This document shows, in pieces, positions 421-36,591 of a DNA stretch of 64,000 bases. Source of the stretch: Oscillospiraceae bacterium. Its GTDB lineage: Bacteria; Bacillota; Clostridia; Oscillospirales; CAG-272. Position 1 is the stretch's first letter. Each line of letters begins with the position of its first letter. The notes beneath the pieces are model-generated. The model made no database searches. It worked only from the letters and a program-made list of their open reading frames with translations, and was not told the origin of the DNA. The DNA lies in the NCBI GenBank assembly GCA_015064555.1, contig SVRZ01000003.1:1-64000 (forward strand), given 5' to 3'. The position numbers and the translations under genes were made by a program.

Positions 421-630
421 TGAGTCCTCCAAAATAGCAAATGGGGCTGTGTAATTTAGGCGTAACCGAAAAACTACAGAGGCATTCTGCAAGCAGTGCC
501 TCTGTAGTGCTTTATGTGTGACCTGAAGGGAGCAAGAAATTCTACATTCCTGCCGTTGTTTATTATTATGTCTAGTGTCACTGTCTGACATAATAAAACT
601 CCAAAAAAGCATTTTTAGTTTAGAGTTATG

Positions 631-810
631 AATTTGGCTTTGCCAAATGTTATGAGCTTGCTATGCAAGCGTTATGATATGATTGCCTTGTAACTTCAAA
701 CTGTGCCGAAGGCACATCATAACTACGCGAAGCGTATCATAACTGATAACTTGCCGCAGGCAATCATAGTTGATCGAATGGGAATGAGCTATGCTCATTC
801 CCATTCGATC
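631..810. repeat. Array of mini-hairpins separated by GTTATGA/TCATAAC linkers
   Basis: ATTTGGCTTTGCCAAAT, GCTTGCTATGCAAGC, TGTGCCGAAGGCACA, TACGCGAAGCGTA, TTGCCGCAGGCAA, then the 18-bp stem GATCGAATGGGAATGAGC/GCTCATTCCCATTCGATC. Confidence 0.75.
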
Positions 811-2654: not shown

Positions 2655-3188
2655 ATGGAACTCAAGGGAACCAAAACAGAACAGAATCTTATGACTGCTT
2701 TTGCAGGCGAATCTCAGGCAAGAAACAAGTACACCTACTTTGCATCTGTTGCAAAGAAGGAGGGCTATGAGCAGATCGCGGCTATCTTCCAGCAGACCGC
2801 AGATAACGAGAAGGAGCATGCAAAGCTTTGGTTCAAGGCTCTTGGCGGACTCGGCACTACTGCGGCGAACCTTCTTGCAGCTGCAGAGGGCGAGAACTAC
2901 GAGTGGACCGATATGTACGATACCTTCGCAAAGGAAGCTGAGGAGGAGGGCTTCAAGGCTCTTGCGGCTCAGTTCAGAATGGTAGCGGCTATCGAGAAGT
3001 CACACGAGGAAAGATATCGCAAGCTCCTCTCCAACGTTGAGATGCAGCAGGTATTTGCAAAGAGCGAGATGACTATGTGGGAGTGCCGCAACTGCGGTCA
3101 CCTTGTAATGGGACTCAAGGCTCCTCTTGCTTGCCCTGTTTGCGCTCATCCTCAGAGCTTCTTCGAGGTAAGAAAAGAGAATTATTGA
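2655..3188 (+). CDS. rbr: Rubrerythrin
   Basis: [19 protein letters not shown] diiron motif and C-terminal rubredoxin-like [25 protein letters not shown]. Confidence 0.95.
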
Positions 3189-3228
3189 TCATATAAATTC
3201 TGATTTATAAAAAACGCCGGTATGCAAA

Positions 3229-3264
3229 CAGAAAGAGCAGACACTTGTATGTCTGCTCTTTCTG
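3229..3264. terminator. Intrinsic terminator downstream of rubrerythrin
   Basis: CAGAAAGAGCAGACA cttgta TGTCTGCTCTTTCTG, 15-bp perfect stem. Confidence 0.7.
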
Positions 3265-3266
3265 TT

Positions 3267-3580
3267 AGTGATGTTTTTGCTAACGCAAAAGTGATGTATT
3301 TGCTGTCGCAAAAGTGATGTATTTGCTAACGCAAAAGTGATGCTATTCGCTACGCTCATAATGATGTTACGAGCCATTTGCTACGCAAATATATGCTCGC
3401 AGTGATGTGATGTTGCCCACTACGCCGTCAGGCGTAACATCATTCACGCAGTGAACATCACTGCCGCAGGCAACATCATTCACGTAGTGAACATCACTGC
3501 CGAAGGCAACATCACTTGCCCTGGGGGGCAAACATCGTTTAGCGTGAATGCTCTGTTAAGAGCATCACGCTAATAGCATC
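3267..3580. repeat. Array of about 10 or more mini-hairpins with GTGATG/CATCAC linkers
   Basis: TTTTGCtaacGCAAAA, TTTGCtgtcGCAAA, TTTGCtaacGCAAA, TTCACGCAGTGAA, TGCCGCAGGCA, TTCACGTAGTGAA, TGCCGAAGGCA, TTGCCCtggGGGGCAA etc., separated by (A)GTGATG or (A)ACATCA(C/T). Confidence 0.75.
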
Positions 3581-3718
3581 ACGCTAATATTTTGCATATG
3601 ATAAGCATATAAGACTAATTTCTTGAAAGAAATCACTTATATATTAGTCATTTTTGCACAGTATAAATGTGCGTGTAGTCGAAATTTGAATTTTTTTGCA
3701 AAAAATCTTGCAAAACTA

Positions 3719-3787: not shown

Positions 3788-5137
3788 ATGTTCAGATCTG
3801 CATACTTAAACGACCTAATGGAGCGCGTTGAGCGCCGCAATCCCGGAGAGCCTGAATTTCATCAGACGGTGCGAGAGGTTCTCGAATCAATAGAGCCCGT
3901 GCTGCTTCAGCGCCCCGAATACATAAAGGCGGGAGTTATAGAAAGGCTCGTCGAGCCCGAGAGAATAATAAAGTTCAGAGTTCCGTGGGTGGATGATAAC
4001 GGAAACGTTGTTGTGAACCGCGGCTTCAGAATTCAGTTCAACAGTGCGATCGGTCCGTATAAGGGCGGTCTTCGCTTCCACCCGAGCGTAAACGAGAGCA
4101 TTATCAAGTTCCTTGGCTTCGAGCAGACCTTCAAGAATTCGCTTACAGGTCTTCCTATGGGCGGCGGTAAAGGCGGCTCTGACTTTGATCCGAAGGGAAA
4201 GTCGGATATGGAGGTTATGCGCTTCTGTCAAAGCTTTATGACAGAGCTTGCCAAGTATATAGGTGCCGATACCGATGTTCCTGCGGGCGATATCGGCGTA
4301 GGCGCACGTGAGATAGGCTATCTCTTCGGTCAGTATAAGAGGCTCCGCGATGAATTCACGGGTGTGCTTACAGGAAAGGGACTTCCGTACGGAGGATCGC
4401 TTATCCGCCCTGAGGCAACAGGCTTTGGTGCGGTGTATTATGCATCATATATGCTCAAGGATCGCGGCGAGGACATAAAGGGAAAGACCTTTGCTATTTC
4501 CGGCTTCGGAAACGTTGCCTGGGGAACCGCGCTCAAGATAACCGAGCTTGGCGGTAAGGTAGTTACTATTTCCGGTCCCGATGGATACGTGTATGATATA
4601 GACGGTATAAATACCAAGGAAAAGATAGACTTTATGGTAAAGATGCGTGCCTCCTGCCGTAACAGGGTAGAGGATTACGCAGATGAATTCGGCGTTCCGT
4701 TCTTCAAGGGTGAGAAGCCATGGGGCGTCAAGGTTGACGTTATTATGCCTTGTGCCACTCAGAATGAGGTCGGAATCGAGGAGGCTCGCCGTATAGTTGA
4801 AAACGGAGTCAAGTATTACGTCGAGGTATCGAACATGCCCACCACCAACGAGGCTCTTGCATACCTTATGGCAAACGGAGTTCTGGTAGCTCCCTCAAAG
4901 GCGGTTAACGCGGGCGGTGTGTCTGTTTCCGGACTTGAGATGTCGCAGAATTCCATGAGATACAGCTGGTCTGCTGAGGAGGTCGATGAAAAGCTCAAGG
5001 TTATAATGAAGAGCATTTACGATTCATCAGTTAAGGCAGCACGCGAGTTCGGTATGGAGGGCAACCTTGTTGCCGGTGCCAATATTGCCGGATTCATAAA
5101 AGTTGCAGATGCTATGCTTGCTCAGGGCGTTGTCTGA
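3788..5137 (+). CDS. gdhA: Glutamate dehydrogenase (NADP-type)
   Basis: PYKGGLRFHPSVNESIIKFLGFEQTFKNSLTGLPMGGGKGGSDFDPKGKSD; full length 449 aa. Confidence 0.97.
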   Translation: MFRSAYLNDLMERVERRNPGEPEFHQTVREVLESIEPVLLQRPEYIKAGVIERLVEPERIIKFRVPWVDDNGNVVVNRGFRIQFNSAIGPYKGGLRFHPSVNESIIKFLGFEQTFKNSLTGLPMGGGKGGSDFDPKGKSDMEVMRFCQSFMTELAKYIGADTDVPAGDIGVGAREIGYLFGQYKRLRDEFTGVLTGKGLPYGGSLIRPEATGFGAVYYASYMLKDRGEDIKGKTFAISGFGNVAWGTALKITELGGKVVTISGPDGYVYDIDGINTKEKIDFMVKMRASCRNRVEDYADEFGVPFFKGEKPWGVKVDVIMPCATQNEVGIEEARRIVENGVKYYVEVSNMPTTNEALAYLMANGVLVAPSKAVNAGGVSVSGLEMSQNSMRYSWSAEEVDEKLKVIMKSIYDSSVKAAREFGMEGNLVAGANIAGFIKVADAMLAQGVV

Positions 5138-13408: not shown

Positions 13409-13528
13409 TATTTAATATAGCTTGTTAATAAGCTTGCGGTGCAAAGCTGCGTCACACGACTGTTACTGTTCGTGTGACTATGAAAAGAATACTTTTATAG
13501 GTCATAATCTTTACTTAATTCAATATAA

Positions 13529-13643
13529 TTTCTTTGGGGAATGGTGAAAATCCATACCGGCAGTATAGTCTGCGAAGAAGGGGAAACCCTTCCCGAAAAG
13601 GTGAAATTCCTTTACCGACGGTATAGTCCGGATGAAAAAAGAA
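13529..13643 (+). ncRNA. FMN riboswitch (RFN element)
   Basis: GGGGAATGGTGAAAATCCATACCGGCAGTATAGTCTGCGAAG...GGTGAAATTCCTTTACCGACGGTATAGTCCGGATGAAAAAAGAA matches the RFN consensus. Confidence 0.93.
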
Positions 13644-13705
13644 AAAGGCGTTGAATGCTCAATTATTCAATTTATGTAAATAATTGTATGCATTTTGCCA
13701 TAATT

Positions 13706-35906: not shown

Positions 35907-36591
35907 AGCGATCTTCCGGCATAACCGAATAAAAACAGGTTAGGTTTGTGGACATAGTTCCATAAACGACGCGTGAGCCGAGGGTATAAGCCCTCGGCTC
36001 ATGCTTGCTTTTGAGAGATTGTAAGGTATCAAGGTTGAAAACCTGCGGTTTTCCTCCGTTTTATTAAAGTTTTTATTCTATCCTCGTATCCTCCCTCGCT
36101 GTATACATATACAGCTCTCGGTCGTCAGCCGAGGATTTCTGCGCGGAACCTCATCTCCCGGCGCCTCGGTGCGAACAAAGTTCCTCGAAATTCAAAGAAG
36201 CGATCTTCCGGCATAAGCGAATAAAAACAGGTTAGGTTTGTGGACATAGTTCCATAAACAACGCATGAGCCGAGGGTATAAGCCCTCGGCTCATGCTTGC
36301 TTTTGAGAGATTTTAAGGTATTAAGGTTGAAAACCTGCGGTTTTCCTCCATTTCATTAAAGTTTTTATTCTATCCTCGTATCCTCCCTCGCTGTATACAT
36401 ATACAGCTCTCGGTCATCAGCCGAGGATTTCTGCGCGGAACCTCATCTCCCGGCGCCTCGGTGCGAACAAAGTTCCTCGAAATTCAAAGGAGCGATCTTC
36501 CGGCATAACCGAATAAAAACAGAATAAGGTTGTGGACATAGTTCCATAAACGACGCATGAGCCGAGGGTATAAGCCCTCGGCTCATGCTTA
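35907..36591. repeat. 292-bp direct tandem repeat, two full copies plus a 101-bp partial third copy, each with a terminator hairpin
   Basis: AGCGATCTTCCGGCATAA at 35907, 36199 and 36491 (exactly 292 bp apart); each contains ATGAGCCGAGGG tataag CCCTCGGCTCAT (GTGAGCC in copy 1). Confidence 0.93.

Follow-up and report, generated by a model that had tools for sequence, protein, structure and literature searches.

A mini-hairpin array of a gut Clostridia genome as a probable copy of a non-autonomous mobile element placed in terminator loops

What is a row of mini-hairpins, joined by one repeated linker and its reverse complement, doing between a rubrerythrin and a glutamate dehydrogenase gene? In the window, the whole 64,000-nucleotide stretch of DNA analysed here, such an array lies in the intergenic region at 3267-3586. 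Comparison with related loci points to a probable answer, namely that gut Clostridia share a non-autonomous mobile DNA element, which has moved between genomes into the loops of terminators, and that the array is one of its copies, minus the left-hand module.

The window array and the plan of complete copies

An earlier note on this DNA had described a mini-hairpin array with GTGATG/CATCAC linkers, and the linker positions (Table 1), the hairpin density and the folding scores all bear this out. Eleven hairpins (stem of at least 5, loop of 3-4) lie in 3267-3580 where the window average predicts 1.1, a density about tenfold higher, and the window holds one chain of at least five such hairpins (3421-3531), compared with none in 20 simulated 64-kb sequences. 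Folded as single-stranded DNA, the array region reaches -107.6 kcal/mol (z = -12.4); the RNA fold gives z = -10.2. Among its hairpins are TTTTGC-TAAC-GCAAAA, ATTTGC-TAC-GCAAAT, TACGCC-GTCA-GGCGTA, TTCAC-GCA-GTGAA, TGCC-GCA-GGCA, TTCAC-GTA-GTGAA and TGCC-GAA-GGCA; the loops of the left half-array are TNC or TNNC, which read GNA or GNNA on the opposite strand, and the array contains tandem units of 23 bp and 36 bp.

The extent of 3267-3580 given in the earlier note captured the array itself, but the feature is larger and takes in both the terminator and the right terminal hairpin of Table 1. The terminator stands 38 nt 3' of the rubrerythrin stop codon and matches the internal terminator of complete copies, with the same position in L033, L175 and L195; the window copy, which has no left module, begins at this hairpin. 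The 3' arm of the long-range helix is an alternative to the mini-hairpin TTGCCC..GGGCAA at 3516-3531.

Table 1. Coordinates of the array, its sister array and the neighbouring genes in the window
Feature	Position	Strand	Remark
Sister array, linker (G)TTATGA / TCATAA(C)	625..771	.	second element family, also at C44 (L197)
18-bp perfect inverted repeat	772..810	-	in place of the sister family's terminal hairpin
guaA	795-1796	minus	
Rubrerythrin gene	2655-3188		name read from translation
Bidirectional intrinsic-terminator hairpin	3227..3266	.	17-bp perfect stem, 6-nt loop
Left half-array	3268..3412	+	GTGATG linkers alternating with mini-hairpins
GTGATG linker starts, left half-array	3268, 3291, 3314, 3337, 3402, 3407		ATGATG variant at 3361
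Long-range helix, 5' arm GATGTT(T)GCCC	3409..3418	+	pairs with 3526-3536; covaries across copies
Right half-array	3421..3531	-	inverted counterpart of left half; loops mostly GNA/GNNA
CATCAC/T linker starts (reverse complement), right half-array	3438, 3456, 3474, 3492, 3510		
Gut-1 (RF01706) match	3468..3540	-	41.7 bits, below the gathering score of 50
Long-range helix, 3' arm GGGCAAACATC	3526..3536	+	covariation across copies
Right terminal hairpin TAGCGTGAATGCTCTGTTAAGAGCATCACGCTA	3540..3572	-	inverted counterpart of the left end of complete copies, GTGATGTYCTTAGCGGAGAATT
Extra 14-nt tandem copy, repeating the final stretch of the terminal hairpin	3573..3586	-	
Glutamate dehydrogenase gene	3788-5137		name read from translation

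Complete copies measure about 365 bp (mostly about 350-430 bp) and follow a common plan: a left end (GGGTGATGTYCTTAGCGGAGAATTT), a left module carrying mini-hairpins of its own, then the bidirectional terminator, next the inverted array, and last a terminal hairpin on the right, which mirrors the left end as its inverted counterpart and has TAGCGTGAATGCTCCGTTAAGAGCATCACGCTA as its commonest form. They have several features of a miniature inverted-repeat element (MITE), being short, multi-copy (5-13 end matches per genome), bounded by hairpin-shaped terminal inverted repeats (GTGATGTYCTTAGCGGAGAATT and inverted GTGATRCTCTTAACGGAGYATT) and devoid of transposase coding capacity; the longest reading frame among 33 copies has 103 codons. 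Direct dinucleotides AT or AA stand at many insertion sites, where 'AT' can be assigned either to the end or to a duplication.

Several peculiarities were seen in individual copies and elsewhere in the window. The hairpin TATTCGC-TAC-GCTCATA (window 3343-3359; L004, L006, L044, L066, L071, L087) shows one and the same pair of internal mismatches in many arrays, in contrast to the otherwise perfect stems. At L006 (host contig C38, 44734-45116) the right half-array has grown to about 12 tandem AACATCACTGCCGYAGGC units and the terminal hairpin is absent, and at L072 (1939-2269) a GC-rich extra stretch (CCCCGTACCTCGGGGTCCTCG...) in the last mini-hairpin appears to be an insertion nested in the array. 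Unlike the other sites, L039/L092 and L079/L174 have terminator halves as direct repeats flanking the element (AATTGAGGGGGAGTTTT; TTAAGGCGGG), with repeats of 10 bp and 17 bp at L079 and L039/L092 instead of AT. The window also carries an FMN riboswitch (13526-13647, 103 bits) and, at 35907-36590, a direct tandem repeat (unit 292 bp, 2.3 copies, 96% matches) that includes a terminator-like hairpin, CATGAGCCGAGGG..CCCTCGGCTCATG.

Dispersal and insertion into terminators

In the host MAG (2.07 Mb), a BLAST search with the array returned 17 matches, and this copy number is a lower bound because several matches lie at contig ends. When one 23-nt array motif was scanned over 84,980 genomes, 55 loci were found, nearly all in Clostridia MAGs from ruminant guts; 53 of them are array-like, including related arrays without the ends described above (L050, L060, L068 and others), and the two exceptions, L045 (Bacteroidia) and L046 (Prevotellaceae), apparently lie inside genes and look like chance matches. 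A search of 245 genomes of the order found the element ends in 19, spread over 18 of 126 sampled genera, against none for a reversed-pattern control. Typical complete copies from seven genomes share 93-99% pairwise identity, whereas guaA identity between those element-bearing genomes, where measurable, is 69-81%; the element family therefore appears to move horizontally. At the level of sequence, dispersal and high identity across distant hosts are established, as are the terminator-like flanks, the single linker per array and the covariation considered below. The earlier suggestion of a non-autonomous mobile element thus finds backing in dispersed copies, cross-genome identity and shared ends. 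A phage origin was set aside, as an exact search of 2.9 million viral contigs gave nothing for either end pattern, and literature searches among open-access papers brought up no description of the element.

The sites into which complete copies have gone share a distinctive setting. Over 31 distinct sites, the mean flank complementarity score is 10.3, compared with 6.3 for re-paired flanks (z = 15.2), and an A-run is present in the left flank at 29 of these sites and a T-run in the right flank at 26. The flanks thus look like the halves of an intrinsic terminator, which places the element in terminator loops, and those of L204, AACAAACAAAAAAACCGACGGCGG / CCACCGTCGGTTTTTTGTTTG, are typical. Of 30 sites scored, not one separates divergent genes. 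A terminator 3' of clpX contains the element in the host (L195), while in two relatives (L245, L246) a terminator is present there without it; the terminator interrupted at L148 is similar to the internal terminator of the second element family. Flank pairing is weak at about one third of the sites, and the window copy, with outer flanks TATGCAAA / TTTGCATA that pair over only 8 bp, is itself a weak example. No empty site at nucleotide resolution was found among the loci compared: the relatives inspected for the window locus do not have the rubrerythrin-gdhA gene order, and for the C40, G001 and G004 copies the search gave only L245 and L246, which are orthologous terminators, and L237, a divergent site that lacks such resolution.

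How could such insertions be tolerated? A putative enzyme would carry the element between genomes and set it in the loop of an intrinsic terminator, whose job would probably be taken over by the internal terminator of the element, and the insertion may be harmless because of this probable replacement. A mobile element that targets terminators would be significant as a case in which the insertion site limits the damage to the host. The IS30 family of transposases prefers palindromic targets. As a candidate partner it was rejected, since it is present in only 4 of 17 element-bearing genomes and has no matching ends; at the IS30 and Y1_Tnp loci examined, neither the element ends nor a transposase with matching ends was found.

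Linkers, loops and the single-stranded DNA reading

Arrays differ in their linkers, which may be GTGATG, GTGAAG, GTGATAT (L180), TGAAATC (L179, L186), TCGATATG (L198, four forward and four reverse) or TTATGA (window 625-771, L197). The earlier note had supposed that linkers are specific to each array, and this is supported: 27 of the 37 GTGATG/GTGAAG arrays are pure, against 4.5 expected under random mixing, a null that treats arrays as unrelated. Counted over these arrays, 245 linkers belong to the majority type and 16 to the other, and in 34 of the 37 all forward linkers precede all reverse linkers. When homologous positions are aligned, GTGATG arrays depart from GTGAAG arrays at one linker position, which is the same in the left and the right half. 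Pairing in three linker helices reaches 98.2%, and the number of doubly changed cells is 24, compared with 8.2 in shuffles; the long-range helix GATGTTTGCCC / GGGCAAACATC switches to TAAGTTTGCCC / GGGCAAACTTA, and RNAalifold recovers the linker ladder unprompted. These linker and helix changes may stem from few events, because they are shared among related copies. Chimeras of two linker types exist (L053, L077, L087), and copy survival therefore does not require perfect linker pairing.

The accompanying idea of freely interchangeable hairpin cassettes is supported only in part, for the hairpins are mostly position-homologous between arrays, although some tandem expansion does occur. Of the stems thought to recur in both window arrays, TGCCGAAGGCA does so, but an exact TTGCCGCAGGCAA is confined to 751-763 and the second array has CTGCCGCAGGCAA instead.

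In single-stranded DNA, the left linkers would pair with the right linkers, and the resulting helices would form a ladder that bears mini-hairpins along either side. This fold would be a likely substrate for template switching at replication, which could keep the stems perfect and change all linkers of one array together. Template switching is able to create and repair hairpin stems (PMC8794818). One direct trace lies beside the sister array, where the inverted repeat at 772-810 takes its right arm from the 3' coding end of guaA and has an inverted duplicate of that end as its left arm, a footprint that template switching would be expected to leave; in seven other genomes the end of guaA lacks such a duplicate. 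We infer that linkers could be homogenised in this manner, and the concerted linker change within one array offers a natural case that makes template-switch homogenisation testable.

The loops add a further pointer to DNA. Loop polarity was scored with the left half taken from the minus strand and the right half from the plus strand. Of 80 distinct hairpins, 49 then show a GNA or GNNA loop (background 8 of 87), and none shows the opposite TNC/TNNC polarity. Ultra-stable DNA mini-hairpins are known to follow a rule in which a GNA or GNNA loop is closed by G-C pairs (PMC4686876). Judged by their sequences, the loops fit this DNA rule (C-GNA-G / C-GNNA-G) and not the RNA GNRA rule, the third base of the GNNA loops being a pyrimidine in 14 of 23. 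The DNA folding parameters used treat GNA and TNC triloops as equal, and the argument from DNA stability rests on the published rule because the computed energy shows no difference between them. The arrays may act, then, as single-stranded DNA.

Gut-1, rival explanations and known systems

The earlier note had named a catalogued repeat family as an outcome that would speak against its reading, and this outcome is half realised: the half-array matches Gut-1 (RF01706) of Rfam. The window match, though below the gathering score, aligns over the full length of the model (positions 1-77), with its three hairpins and repeated linker, and sibling copies with TGAAATC or GTGAAG linkers exceed the cut-off (L195 50.3, L186 57.6, L179 54.9, L144 54.3 and L157 54.2 bits, and others). 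Gut-1 matches occur in all 17 element-bearing genomes tested, 2-45 in each and 28 in the host; among the 150 matches listed, 12 adjacent pairs are arranged head to head, with one orientation common to all of them. Loci found by means of Gut-1 include other inverted arrays, mostly with one linker each and some beside tRNA genes and terminators; some adjoin terminators rather than occupy them (L292, L293, L319). At L293, L309, L295 and L300 such arrays are bordered by a tRNA T-arm-like stretch (TTCGAACTCTTACA / GAGTTCGAATCC). Given the many matches per genome, the head-to-head pairs and the inverted one-linker arrays, it seems that Gut-1 represents one half of a broader class of mobile arrays, with the window family as one member, and the Rfam entry would gain a different identity, as half of a mobile inverted array and not a single RNA gene.

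It is nevertheless worth asking whether the published identity could suffice. Gut-1 was reported from human gut sequences only, as a probable or candidate non-coding RNA (Weinberg 2010, PMC2864571), and a structured RNA gene acting in trans, with hairpins and linkers conserved for RNA function, would account for the covarying pairs and for the over-threshold scores of sibling copies. We regard this explanation as unlikely, since Gut-1 matches number 2-45 per genome at scattered sites, the head-to-head pairs keep a constant orientation, copies lie in the terminators of unrelated genes and are common to distant hosts, and the loops are of the DNA GNNA and not the RNA GNRA kind. Still less probable is a purely local structure, grown at terminators by slippage and template switching without any mobility: the long AACATCACTGCCGYAGGC run at L006 in C38, the 23-bp and 36-bp tandem units of the window and the guaA inverted duplicate are all of the expected kind, but local growth cannot yield copies over 90% identical, with the same ends, at unrelated sites of distant genomes. 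These local processes remain valid as an account of how arrays are reshaped after insertion.

A REP/BIME-like element that owes its movement to a RAYT (Y1 HUH) transposase would share the inverted hairpin-shaped ends, the intergenic sites and the multiple copies. It seems very improbable here, as the GTAG or CGTC tag is absent, the ends being GGGTGATG / AGCGTGATG, and the REP-associated transposase that the earlier note had in mind was not borne out: Y1_Tnp was not found in six of nine element-bearing genomes, namely the host (82% complete) and five of the eight others tested. The reading as a mobile element placed in terminator loops is thus preferred. Beyond it, a bolder and rather speculative proposal could be made, in which Gut-1-type arrays would form a new mobile class active as single-stranded DNA in the form of ultra-stable GNA/GNNA mini-hairpins, a putative enzyme would insert it on reading terminator hairpins by their shape, and the linker would serve as a family recognition word rewritten across the array by template switching.

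How, finally, does the element compare with known systems? It shares with Gut-1 the mini-hairpin row and the repeated GUGAAAU-type linker, the three-hairpin model corresponding to one half-array; Gut-1 was filed as a small RNA gene on one strand in human gut metagenomes, whereas the window element is inverted, multi-copy and mobile, has several linker types and comes mostly from ruminant-gut MAGs. BOX and other MITEs (PMC3049150) and BrickBuilt (PMC4596501) are likewise short, gene-less, modular, multi-copy and structured, with a variable internal repeat, and BrickBuilt has a 23-nt minisatellite and lies near terminators; the available parts of these two papers report no inverted linker ladder, concerted linker switching or terminator-loop insertion. 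IS1397, ISKpn1, IS621 and ISPpu9 also insert specifically inside extragenic palindromes, but these elements carry a transposase and have REP sequences as their target (PMC1525189), whereas the target of the present element would be set by terminator structure and not by sequence, and it carries no enzyme. REP/REPIN sequences with RAYT (PMC2817692, PMC3116915) are, like it, non-autonomous and intergenic with inverted hairpin ends, and differ in their tetranucleotide tag and in their partner RAYT, which was not found in most of the host genomes tested here.
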